Source: a virus. From it: a DNA stretch of 21,627 bases. Of this stretch, positions 11,243 through 17,489 are shown piece after piece (within the stretch, counting starts at the first letter, position 1; every line of letters starts with the position of its first letter). The stretch is taken from the IMG/VR virus record IMGVR_UViG_3300032046_000248, positions 1 to 21,627 of that record. One strand, written 5' to 3'. A program made the translations under genes and the position numbers. Below the pieces are notes generated by a model that saw only the letters and a program-made list of their open reading frames with translations, was not told where the DNA came from and did not search any database.

Positions 11243-12667
11243 ATGAGGACTAACAGTTTTCTAAACGCACTACAGACTAGAGATGCTCTTACTGAGAATG
11301 ATATGGTAACTCATTCTACCTCAGGTAGCAGGGTTCTAGATTTGTTCTATGGTATGGGTGGGTCTCGTCAGTTGAATGAGGCCAGAATCGCAGGTATGTT
11401 CTCACAGGCTTTTATTGAGAACAGACTTCTAGCTACCAAGGCATTGTTCTATAACAGGGACGTGCGTGGTGGACAGGGAGAGAGACGCTCATTCAGAATT
11501 ATGTTTGAGTATCTATGCTATGATCATCCAGAGGTAGCAATCAAGAACATCCCTAACGTACCCTTCTACGGAAGATGGGACGACTTGTTCAATGCACTAG
11601 GAACTCCTGCAGAGAAGCCAGCTTTGGACTTTATAGCTACTGCTCTAAAGGCAGGAGACAAGCTATGTGCTAAGTGGATGCCTCGTGAGGGTAAGCACAA
11701 CTCAGCTTGGGCAAAGATTCTTCGTACCCACCTAGAGCTAACCCCAAAGCAGTATCGTAAGCTATTGGCTGGAAACACTCAGGTTATCGAGAATTTTATG
11801 TGCTCAGGGGACTGGGGAAAGATTGACTACAACCACGTTCCTTCTGTAGCTTCCAACAAGTACAGACACGCCTTCGGAAAGCACGACTTCGAGAGGTATT
11901 CAGGATGGTTGGAGAGTCTAAGCAAGCCTGAGTCAGGAAATAAGATTCATGCTGACGCTATCTTCCCACACACCATTGTTCACGGATACCTAAGTAACCA
12001 TTATGGGGGTATCAAGGGACTGGACAAGACCCTAGAGGCTCAGTGGAAGGCTCTACCTAACTATGTTCCAGATGGACACTCATTCATTCCTGTATGTGAT
12101 GTTTCAGGGTCAATGAATGGAGAGCCTATGGAGGTAAGTGTAAGTCTAGGTGTATACCTATCAGAGAGGAACAAGGGACCATTCAAGGATGCGTTCCTAA
12201 CTTTCTCAGGTCGTCCACAGCTACAGATTCTTACCGGAAATACCCTAAGAGGTAAGATTGAGCAGTTGGAGGCTTCACACTGGGATATGAACACCGACCT
12301 AGAGGCAGTATTCAAGTTGATATTGTCAAAGGCTACGTCAGGTTCAGTTCCTGCAGAGGATATGCCTGAGACCATCCTAATCATTTCCGATATGCAGTTC
12401 GACCAGTGTATCGAGAAGCCAAGCAACACGGCTATGGATATGATTAGAAGGCAGTACGAGACCGCTGGTTACAAGATTCCAAACGTGGTGTTCTGGAACG
12501 TAAGAACCTCACAGGGAATTCCTGTAAAGCTAGACGAGCAGGGTACTGCAATCGTAAGCGGATTCTCACCTAGCGTTATGAAGAATCTATTGAGTGGTGA
12601 GATGAGACCTGACGCAGTAATGCTTCGTACCTTGCTAGACCCAAGGTACGAGAGAGTAGTAATCTAA
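11243..12667 (+). CDS. DUF2828 / TROVE-vWA (Ro60-like) RNA-binding protein
   Basis: 474 aa. The N-terminal part (about 25-270) matches the DUF2828/TROVE alpha-helical repeat domain, with the signatures FYNRDVRGGQGERR (69-82), FYGRWDDLF (108-116), KWMPREGK (144-151) and DYNHVPSVASNKYRHAF (195-211). The C-terminal part is a vWA domain with a complete metal site: DVSGS (286-290), Thr351 in DMNTDLEA and Asp383 in IISDMQFD. Ro60 proteins with this pairing form a ring that binds the ends of structured or misfolded RNAs and Y RNAs, and in bacteria can tether RNA-degrading enzymes. The gene follows six small structured RNAs and a tRNA-like RNA. It prefers C/G-ending codons (GAG, AAG, TAC, AAC) more than its neighbours, suggesting high expression. 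Functional equivalence to Ro60 is inferred; DUF2828 itself is poorly characterised. Confidence 0.87.
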   Translation: MRTNSFLNALQTRDALTENDMVTHSTSGSRVLDLFYGMGGSRQLNEARIAGMFSQAFIENRLLATKALFYNRDVRGGQGERRSFRIMFEYLCYDHPEVAIKNIPNVPFYGRWDDLFNALGTPAEKPALDFIATALKAGDKLCAKWMPREGKHNSAWAKILRTHLELTPKQYRKLLAGNTQVIENFMCSGDWGKIDYNHVPSVASNKYRHAFGKHDFERYSGWLESLSKPESGNKIHADAIFPHTIVHGYLSNHYGGIKGLDKTLEAQWKALPNYVPDGHSFIPVCDVSGSMNGEPMEVSVSLGVYLSERNKGPFKDAFLTFSGRPQLQILTGNTLRGKIEQLEASHWDMNTDLEAVFKLILSKATSGSVPAEDMPETILIISDMQFDQCIEKPSNTAMDMIRRQYETAGYKIPNVVFWNVRTSQGIPVKLDEQGTAIVSGFSPSVMKNLLSGEMRPDAVMLRTLLDPRYERVVI

Positions 12668-13490: not shown

Positions 13491-13561
13491 GCTTTGGTAG
13501 CTCAAAGGCAGAGCGAGTGTCTCTAAAACACTTTATAGGGGTTCAATTCCCCTTCAAAGCG
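13491..13561 (+). tRNA. Amber suppressor tRNA, anticodon CTA
   Basis: Acceptor GCTTTGG/TCAAAGC, D-stem GCTC/GAGC, anticodon stem AGTGT/ACACT with loop CTCTAAA, T-arm AGGGG-TTCAATT-CCCCT, discriminator G. Loop positions 34-36 are CTA, which reads the stop codon TAG. GTCTCTAAAAC in this arm differs by one base from GTCTCCAAAAC of the window's tRNA-Trp, and both have G73, so it may derive from tRNA-Trp. In E. coli, tRNA-Trp mutated to CUA (Su+7) is charged mainly with Gln. The amino acid inserted here cannot be read from sequence. Confidence 0.92.
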
Positions 13562-13572
13562 CACATCTTTTT

Positions 13573-13582
13573 GAAAGGAGGT
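13573..13582 (+). promoter_or_regulatory. Near-perfect ribosome site before ATG-TAG
   Basis: GAAAGGAGGT lies 5 nt before the ATG at 13588, the strongest Shine-Dalgarno match noted in the window, yet the second codon is TAG. It is also exactly complementary to ACCTCCTTTC in the leader RNA at 10202-10211. Confidence 0.7.
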
Positions 13583-13587
13583 ACACC

Positions 13588-13617
13588 ATGTAGACAGATA
13601 AATCTCCACCATCCTGA
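13588..13617 (+). CDS. ATG-TAG minigene (9-codon peptide if TAG is suppressed)
   Basis: ATG at 13588 is followed at once by TAG (13591). If TAG is read by the suppressor tRNA encoded 27 nt upstream, translation runs M-X-T-D-K-S-P-P-S and stops at TGA (13615-13617). Without suppression the ribosome stops after one codon. Minigenes of two codons in phage lambda (bar) cause peptidyl-tRNA drop-off and are relieved by peptidyl-tRNA hydrolase. The ATG-TAG start is repeated in the Pth2-like gene at 14046. The role is inferred; it could be a sensor or leader controlling the gene at 13667. Confidence 0.45.
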
Positions 13618-13666
13618 TTATATTTTATCCGACTATCATATATAAAATATAAAAAGGAGAAACAAA

Positions 13667-14056
13667 ATGAATACACTAAGTAAAGAATTTACGTTAGGAA
13701 CATTTTTTGGTGAAGACCCTGAGAACTATACAAAACTTCGTAAGCAGTGGTCTAAGATGGTAAACTCAGACACCAAAGATGAATTAACAATGGCACACCA
13801 CATCCTCTATCTTATCTTGATAGGTAAGAATTGGAAGAAAGCAGTAACCCTTCCTACAAGTAAAAATAAGTTAGCGAATGGTTACAAGCCCCACATTATT
13901 GATGTGGCAGAAAGATGGAACGGTACTTTTACAAAGAACAAAATTCTATCTGCCTTCGAGGGTGTAGTAACGCCAGAGATGTATGATAACGCAGGAAAAG
14001 TAACCAACCTCGATATGTCTGAGGATGCCTACAAGGACTTGAACAATGTAGACTAA
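13667..14056 (+). CDS. Hypothetical protein, 129 aa
   Basis: Strong AAAAAGGAG site before the ATG. Soluble, helical, Lys/Asn-rich; no recognised motif (it begins MNTLSKEFTLGTFFGEDPENY). Its last 11 bases overlap the ATG-TAG start of the Pth2-like gene, so the two are probably translationally coupled. The 76-nt region before it (13591-13666) is AT-rich and holds the minigene's remaining codons. Confidence 0.75.
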   Translation: MNTLSKEFTLGTFFGEDPENYTKLRKQWSKMVNSDTKDELTMAHHILYLILIGKNWKKAVTLPTSKNKLANGYKPHIIDVAERWNGTFTKNKILSAFEGVVTPEMYDNAGKVTNLDMSEDAYKDLNNVD

Positions 14057-14369
14057 TAAATATTCCTACGTTTTTGTTCGTGATGATTTACCAAACACAG
14101 TAAAACTTGTACAGGCTAGTCATGCTTGTATGGAGATGGGTTTTGTAACAGATGCACCAGAAGAGCAGACGTTCTTAGTGGCACTGTCCGTAAAGAATGA
14201 AGCAGGTTTGATAAAAGTTTCAGAACTCCTAGAACAGCAGGAGATAAAGTTCAAGATGTTTTATGAACCTGACTACAATTACGGGTACACAGCACTCTGT
14301 ACAGAACCAGTTGATTTTGGAAAATACACGCTTTTCGATAGATACAATTTGGTAAAGATTGGCTCTTGA
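14046..14369 (+). CDS. Peptidyl-tRNA hydrolase 2-like protein with TAG as codon 2
   Basis: Pth2 enzymes free amino acids or peptides from tRNA that has dropped off the ribosome. Reading from 14046 gives M-(TAG)-TNKYSYVFVRDDLPNTVKLVQASHACMEMG, which matches the Pth2 first strand and catalytic helix (VRxDL...QxxHA), and later FKMFYEPDYNYGYTALCTEP. The only upstream in-frame start is ATG 14046, preceded by AAGGA, and its next codon is TAG. The later ATG at 14130 would remove the whole conserved N-terminus. So the gene appears to need the amber suppressor at 13491. Total 107 residues; the stop is TGA, which overlaps the promoter at 14366. A sequencing error or pseudogene is the main alternative. 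Confidence 0.72.
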
Positions 14370-16993: not shown

Positions 16994-17489
16994 TACACAC
17001 TTTGGTCACGATGCAATGATGAATCTTTGTGGGAGACCTGAAGGTTTCTCTGAGAAGATACTCATAAACCTAAATCGTACCAAGCAGTGTCCTGATGTTC
17101 TAATACATCTTGGAGACATCTGTTTTGGAAGAGAGGAGTATTGGCATAACGAAATTAGTAAGTGGGTATGTGGAAAGAAGTGGCTTATAAGAGGCAACCA
17201 CGACAAGAAGAGCGATACTTGGTATCTTGAACATGGTTGGGACTTTGTAGCTGAGATGATATGGATAGAGAAGTTTGGGAAGAAGATACTATTCTCCCAT
17301 AAACCCACAGTGGATTGTGGATATGATTTGAATATTCATGGTCACTTCCACAATGCAGACTACAGAAGGTTTGAGCCTGAGTTGGTAGCGATAATGAATA
17401 ACAAACAGGTTCTATTGGCGTTGGAGACCACCAACTACATGCCAGTGAATCTGGAGAAGTTTGTACGACAAGCTGGTGAAGCACATTAG
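16971..17489 (+). CDS. Calcineurin-like metallophosphoesterase
   Basis: 172-aa phosphoesterase with the complete two-metal set: DTHFGH (Asp8, His10), GDICFG (Gly48-Asp49), GNHD (75-78), SH (His110) and GHFH (124-127). Such phage enzymes hydrolyse phosphodiesters or phosphomonoesters; the substrate is not evident. The ATG follows AAAGGATAGAGG. The gene ends CAT-TAG inside the tRNA-Thr(GGT) gene, sharing 18 bases with it; the TAG lies in the tRNA D-loop. If TAG were suppressed, translation would continue through the tRNA for about 50 codons to the next TAG. Confidence 0.88.
   Translation: MNYWITTDTHFGHDAMMNLCGRPEGFSEKILINLNRTKQCPDVLIHLGDICFGREEYWHNEISKWVCGKKWLIRGNHDKKSDTWYLEHGWDFVAEMIWIEKFGKKILFSHKPTVDCGYDLNIHGHFHNADYRRFEPELVAIMNNKQVLLALETTNYMPVNLEKFVRQAGEAH

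Follow-up and report, generated by a model that had tools for sequence, protein, structure and literature searches.

The window, i.e. the whole stretch of DNA analysed here, is an entire virus record of 21,627 bases, a fragment without structural genes. ARAGORN detected 27 tRNAs in it, including a canonical cloverleaf at positions 13491-13562 (+ strand) with anticodon CTA (amber suppressor) in the loop CTCTAAA, as an earlier note on this DNA had read it; the program's label "tRNA-Pyl" reflects the CTA anticodon only. A PHROG 850 protein (RNA-binding protein; DUF2828/DUF7788), presumably Ro60/TROVE-like, is encoded within the tRNA cluster at 11243-12667. Downstream of the suppressor tRNA and on the same strand lies a short leader ORF (13588-13617) with a very good ribosome-binding site of its own, AAAGGAGG (13574-13581), the letters ATG-TAG-ACAGATAAATCT-CCACCA-TCC-TGA (codons ACA, GAT, AAA and TCT in front of the two CCA) encoding M-(TAG)-T-D-K-S-P-P-S-(TGA), with the in-frame "gate" stop at 13591-13593 and Pro-Pro at 13606-13611. 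The leader precedes gene X (13667-14056, + strand, 129 aa), which gave no matches as a single query and whose relatives match PHROG 22448 in profile search. The end of gene X is overlapped by 11 nt by the start of a gene resembling the peptidyl-tRNA hydrolase Pth2 (14046-14369, + strand), which has the ribosome-binding site AAGGA (14033-14037) and runs from ATG 14046 through a gate TAG as codon 2 (14049-14051) and 105 open codons to TGA 14367-14369. The distance of about 480 nt between tRNA and Pth2-like gene given in the earlier note holds (484 nt), but the second ATG-TAG frame, i.e. the leader, was missed there, and the 129-aa gene also lies in between.

No in-frame ATG, GTG or TTG separates the TAG from the conserved YSYVFVRDDL of the Pth2-like protein, and the next ATG in frame (14130) lies beyond the conserved region; the frame is complete only from ATG 14046 via the TAG, as had been noted before. 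The closest homologues in IMG/VR (L001-L003) start with MNKYSYVFVR and the window frame reads M-TAG-T-NKYSYVFVR, therefore the frame and its N-terminus are real. Two IMG/VR matches to the pattern ATG-TAG-NKYxYVF were both chance occurrences on the wrong strand of other genes. Among close relatives sought via DnaB (L007-L017) none spans the switch, the contig of L008 stopping just before the position of the suppressor tRNA.

CTA suppressor tRNAs together with in-frame TAG are hallmarks of phages in which TAG has become a sense codon (genetic code 15; PMC9523058, PMC10607447), and a general reassignment could account for both features of the window. However, 5 of the 29 reading-frame ends counted in the window are TAG (19 TAA, 5 TGA), so that this genome uses TAG as a normal stop. 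They include polA, recA, dnaB and the exonuclease (1338, 2345, 5180, 8542), correctly listed before as ending in TAG, and a fifth frame ending at 17489; the accompanying idea that these are early genes made before suppression, with recoding in late genes, is not upheld, and no reassignment, genome-wide or in late genes, was seen within the 21.6-kb fragment lacking structural genes. Genes ending in amber number 18 in phage XacN1 (PMC5852040) and 12 in Summit (PMC9022506) according to their authors, and early TAG codons are concentrated in the Pth2-like module. We regard general reassignment as a very remote prospect: as far as these sequences go, the system is not genome recoding, with the gate confined to one small accessory module.

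Relatives of the Pth2-like gene in large phages were found by tblastn against phage records, and a profile scan of IMG/VR yielded 68 loci. The comparison of homologues for ATG-TAG starts proposed in the earlier note showed such stops across many phage lineages: 47 distinct homologous start regions have an early in-frame stop, which is TAG in 45, TGA in two (one of them, L056, spurious, as ATG follows the TGA) and TAA in none. Codons 3 and 4 are the most frequent positions of the TAG (range codon 2-9). In-frame TAG lineages include the window, Pectobacterium phage CBB and Cronobacter phage GAP32 (MAQ-TAG-NEKTWIYVFVR), Erwinia/Serratia phages (MTH-TAG-NDKTW), Acinetobacter phage ME3 (MT-TAG-IHENKKHTYVFVR), Salmonella phage Arash (ML-TAG-NKHWIYTFVR), XbC2, LR756511 (MTH-TAG-VETPYLYCFVR), the very distant members LR756501 (735 kb; MS-TAG-IYKLIVVTRQDL) and LR756500 (MK-TAG-INNHK), the M. 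smegmatis phage StephanieG (ATG-TAG-GTG, with a CTA tRNA downstream) and IMG/VR contigs. The base 3' of the TAG is a purine in 45/45 starts (A 34, G 11, never a pyrimidine); a purine after UAG favours suppression. Because the frame has a TAG near its start, annotated Pth2-like genes of large phages are truncated or absent.

As a lone metagenomic contig (21.6 kb), the window might owe its TAG to a sequencing or assembly error or to decay of the gene into a dead pseudogene, but finished, independently sequenced genomes and dozens of contigs show the same feature, its codon position varying and the remaining frame being intact and conserved; errors or decay would yield TAA and TGA as well, and TAA was not seen in the 47 start regions. 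The probability of this explanation is practically negligible. As a control, all loci were scanned for ATG with a ribosome-binding site, a stop by codon 11 and then at least 75 open codons with no alternative start: 56 TAG cases vs 15 TAA and 13 TGA were counted, most of the TAG cases being the Pth2-like family, and early TAG is therefore more frequent than expected by chance. A search for TAG interruptions in any gene returned mostly antisense frames; otherwise only an HD-domain gene (described below) and Pth2 stood out among the matches listed.

Translation might also begin after the TAG at a non-standard codon, or reach the frame by frameshifting from gene X, which would make the ATG-TAG a meaningless overlap. 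A possible start codon directly follows the TAG in L046 (ATG) and StephanieG (GTG), where readthrough may be unnecessary, and ATT or GTN is frequent at this position. But most homologues have no ATG, GTG or TTG between TAG and core, the ATG before the TAG has a well-placed ribosome-binding site, and such starts would leave both the leaders and the match between stop and anticodon unexplained, so that we consider this reading quite unlikely.

The match between stop and anticodon was followed through the homologous loci. A CTA tRNA lies at a distance of ≤6 kb in most Pth2-like loci, with 55 distinct CTA tRNAs near homologous genes. A covariance model built from 34 aligned CTA tRNAs, plus whole-record searches, located one elsewhere on the contig for L029, L032, L033, L050, L065, LR756511, RAS14 and XacN1, and the CTA tRNAs of L088 and L093, missed by ARAGORN, were identified by eye. 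That of L088 (6434-6539; L115 1501-1606), overlooked in the ARAGORN default search, has a very long variable arm. Counted by hand, 65/68 IMG/VR homologues are gated by a stop at some point of the module, and in 59 of the 65 the contig also encodes the cognate suppressor tRNA. The six gated loci with no cognate tRNA on the contig are L028, L034 and L092 (short fragments), L040 (103 kb) and L041 (30 kb), which have TAG leaders, and L044 (357 kb), in which TAG gates are kept and no CTA tRNA was found, ARAGORN having covered part of the contig. An Arg-CCG tRNA occupies 9893-9968 of L044, the syntenic place at which relatives carry the CTA tRNA. The ungated homologues in Hallingskeid, RaK2 and S-CBWM1 come with no suppressor tRNA seen (for RaK2 and S-CBWM1, within 12 kb around the gene).

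The stop and the tRNA also differ jointly. L039 has a TGA start and a tRNA-TCA 282 nt upstream of the match; the L030/L220 contig has a TGA leader and two tRNA-TCA, with no CTA tRNA among the tRNAs seen. The genes behind the TAG leader of L156 (tRNA-CTA) and the TGA leader of L211 (tRNA-TCA) are homologous (62% identical over 120 aa), therefore stop and anticodon have changed together. In the Pth2-like family, as read from these genomes, a stop matching the suppressor tRNA of the phage stands within the first codons and replaces a plain start. The proposal of the earlier note that the gene is made only with an active suppressor is supported by this recurrence, by the near-exclusive cognate stop and by the TGA/TCA switches, and we are highly confident that expression is suppression-gated.

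The leader layout of start, stop, Pro-Pro and end recurs in the relatives. Among homologues with gene X or an X-Pth2 fusion and an available upstream region, the leader is present in all except L031, in which the frame before gene X (5580) carries TAA (MES-TAA-IYFDTS); no TTA tRNA was seen on the parts of L031 scanned. The peptides vary in length and sequence, e.g. MKL-TAG-IRPP-stop (L056), MKL-TAG-IHPP-stop (L002/L073), MFQSSM-TAG-VPFANGPPF (L032), MKKL-TAG-ILSARAPP (L041), MFT-TAG-ITNKSPP-stop (L040), MHR-TAG-IYYQTGPP-stop (L078) and MQA-TAG-ICRPPVPP-stop (L086), and five leaders contain two TAG codons (L028, L029, L033, L089, L090). Third positions of the Pro-Pro codons differ, a sign that selection acts on the peptide encoded in the frame running on past the stop.

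All of IMG/VR was then scanned, using no protein information, for a ribosome-binding site, ATG, one codon, TAG, 6-15 bases, two Pro codons and TAA, a pattern in which 4/10 gap lengths keep the frame. The 49 matches in frame vs 6 out of frame correspond to a binomial p of 5e-14, with related sequences treated as independent, and a CTA tRNA was present at 35/49 in-frame vs 0/6 out-of-frame loci; about one third of the matches have no tRNA in the fetched stretch, many stretches being short. The TGA version of the scan gave 18 loci, 10 of them in frame, and a TCA tRNA is near the TGA leaders of L211 and L213, while L220 belongs to the L030 contig with its two TCA tRNAs. The genes behind the scanned leaders are relatives of gene X, genes for proteins with a Pth2 domain and members of another family, gene Y (YRxxHIAYCxxRGRTxEQIE; L152, L161, L173, L182), which has no PHROG match and in L161 and L173 is joined to a Pth2 domain. 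At the level of sequence, operons opening with X or Y begin with a leader of start, stop, Pro-Pro and end, in which the stop corresponds to the anticodon of the suppressor.

In E. coli there is a functional link between ATG-stop minigenes and peptidyl-tRNA hydrolase. The leaders, which are very short, could be drop-off minigenes of the kind of the lambda bar minigenes, generating short peptidyl-tRNAs with the Pth2-like protein as antidote and readthrough being irrelevant. Such minigenes do not predict an in-frame Pro-Pro after the stop, a matched anticodon or the position of the hairpin described below, and Summit has a leader, yet a search of 62 kb detected no Pth2 there; this explanation is highly unlikely. 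The alternative that we favour, a leader whose readthrough controls the next gene, was examined by RNA folding.

ViennaRNA predicts a hairpin behind the window leader (13612-13659, + strand) in which TTATATTTTAT (13618-13628) pairs with ATAAAATATAA (13642-13652), and TCCT (13612-13615) pairs with the AGGA of the next ribosome-binding site AGGAG (13655-13659). Leader-to-gene distances are 44-73 nt. Twenty-seven non-redundant leaders were compared with shuffled controls, assuming a modelled ribosome footprint and ignoring cotranscriptional folding; the p-values treat related sequences as independent and overstate independence to that extent. Predicted pairing of the next gene's ribosome-binding site in free RNA was 0.66 vs 0.465 in shuffles (p 8e-7); it stayed at 0.66 with a ribosome at the first stop and was 0.31 with a ribosome at the Pro-Pro-stop. 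The predicted gain in access was 0.351 vs 0.052 in shuffles (p 1e-7), and 25/27 leaders exceeded their shuffles. In the window alone, free-state pairing shows no excess (0.42 vs 0.40 shuffled) and is predicted to drop to 0.16. Pro-Pro ahead of a stop is a slow step in translation. The RNA past the leader is thus predicted to hide the next ribosome-binding site, which a ribosome at the Pro-Pro-stop, and not one at the first stop, would set free. A leader ORF with a ribosome-binding site upstream of the regulated gene is seen in the sequence, the structure hiding the next site and its opening by the leader ribosome being predictions, and together they make it probable that the leader works as an attenuator.

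Other genes of the module are gated as well. An HD-domain gene (a provisional name, as Pfam HD matches fall below the curated cut-off) follows or is fused to Pth2 in many gated phages. The TAG is at codon 3 in the HD-Pth2 fusions of XacN1, RAS14 and CM1, and at codon 3-5 if L050 and L082 are taken with them. Where the HD gene is separate, the CBB/GAP32/BF group has the TAG within the domain (..ISELDTG-TAG-GDPVLL..), L035-L037 and L046 have it following LPP, and L061, L065, L079 and L092 have it as codon 3. Different positions of TAG in the same HD gene argue for repeated selection. The HD-domain gene with internal TAG is found at 6312-6875 of L042 and in relatives; in CBB and GAP32 the annotation splits it into two genes. 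A third gated gene family, common to L058 (7784) and L067 (7960), starts with MT-TAG-..VKEAAE (TAG at codon 3); it sits just upstream of the suppressor tRNAs. Phage tmRNA genes are present near the Pth2-like gene and suppressor tRNAs in L058-L063, L067, L068, L079, L082 and L144.

The AlphaFold model of the window Pth2-like protein has a pLDDT of 92.5, and its 14 best PDB matches are all Pth2 structures, the only ones that match well (3erj: E 1.6e-5, TM 0.81). PF01981 matches 27/55 family members at E<=0.01 (best 8e-10), with no match for the window protein itself, and a comparison of the family profile with PDB Pth2 chains gives matches at E 1e-5. The phage family shares with archaeal and eukaryotic Pth2 (PF01981) the fold and the R-x-D ... 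Q-x-x-H-A signature; it differs from them in being shorter, in having its own E-P motif and in missing the Gly-Lys stretch after the first strand, where Lys is aligned to Gln. This Lys is one of the Pth2 catalytic residues, and its replacement by Gln means that the activity may differ from that of classical Pth2. XbC2 has a separate gene annotated as peptidyl-tRNA hydrolase. The Pth2 fold with Gln for Lys, the separate gene of XbC2 with its hydrolase annotation and the nearby tmRNA genes suggest a putative role of the product in handling suppression products or in limiting suppression; we put such a feedback or clean-up role forward tentatively and hold it to be rather doubtful.

We propose that the phage suppressor tRNA very probably acts as a trans-acting inducer of a small operon, both by direct readthrough and by a readthrough-gated attenuator. 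Of the simple ATG-TAG switch in the earlier note the start gate stands, but that switch is incomplete, a readthrough-gated leader peptide being also present upstream in the operon. When the suppressor tRNA is absent, release factor would terminate translation at codon 2-4, the leader hairpin would remain closed and no operon protein would be made. Once the tRNA cluster is transcribed, matured and charged, ribosomes would read the stop as sense; the readthrough ribosome would pause at Pro-Pro(-stop) and open the hairpin, turning on gene X or Y, and ribosomes passing the TAG at the Pth2 start would turn on Pth2. More speculatively, the product may act on peptidyl- or aminoacyl-tRNA arising from suppression, or clear its side effects, in a homeostatic loop like that of RF2, to which the HD protein and the phage tmRNA found nearby in some phages may also belong.

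As in code-15 and other recoded phages (crAss-like, Lak), a phage CTA tRNA would permit translation of genes with in-frame TAG, and work on those phages has already suggested a regulatory role. In recoded phages, however, TAG is reassigned and occurs many times in many genes, most of them structural or lytic, whereas here a single codon is concerned, at the beginning of an accessory module, and the present system adds the Pro-Pro leader attenuator and the TGA/TCA version. With ermC/cat translational attenuation, the trp/his leaders and TnaC it shares a short upstream ORF with its own ribosome-binding site, a Pro-rich, stall-like end and, by prediction, a hairpin hiding the next start under control of the leader ribosome position; the signal in those systems is an antibiotic, a starved sense codon or tryptophan, whereas here it would be stop readthrough by a phage suppressor tRNA. 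No readthrough-triggered leader attenuator was found in the open-access literature searched. In RF2 (prfB), too, an early in-frame stop gauges termination against a competitor and so adjusts how much of a translation-related protein is made, but there a +1 frameshift occurs at UGA and RF2 lowers its own level, while here the stop would be read in frame by a dedicated tRNA. Synthetic amber-suppression feed-forward loops (PMC7969014) likewise make expression tRNA-dependent by a TAG in the target; those are engineered, and the present switch is natural and widespread.

Judging from the genomes compared, we consider it likely that the suppressor tRNA as dedicated inducer, with operons locked by the cognate stop (TAG/CTA, TGA/TCA) at the gene start or in a Pro-Pro leader attenuator, defines a widespread and previously undescribed class of natural switches in large phages. 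If this is true, a leader peptide reporting suppressor-tRNA activity would be a type of sensor absent from the literature searched, and a natural, portable suppressor-operated switch would be on offer. The idea can be tested in M. smegmatis phage StephanieG (Bixzunavirus), Acinetobacter phage ME3 and Serratia phage BF. Lone suppressor tRNAs are common in standard-code phages, and candidate targets can now be proposed for two such phages. The authors of XacN1 did not identify targets for its two suppressor tRNAs (PMC5852040); ORF364 of this phage is the HD-Pth2 fusion and starts with MK-TAG-. The purpose of the suppressor tRNA of Summit was stated as unknown by its authors (PMC9022506); MK-TAG-VYKPP-stop lies 430 nt upstream of this tRNA, before gene 069, a member of the gene Y family. 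The early stops also explain truncated, split and missing genes in annotations and family libraries: PHROG 34073 (77 aa) and 26054 (46 aa) appear to be pieces of Pth2-like and HD genes that arose through the in-frame TAG.
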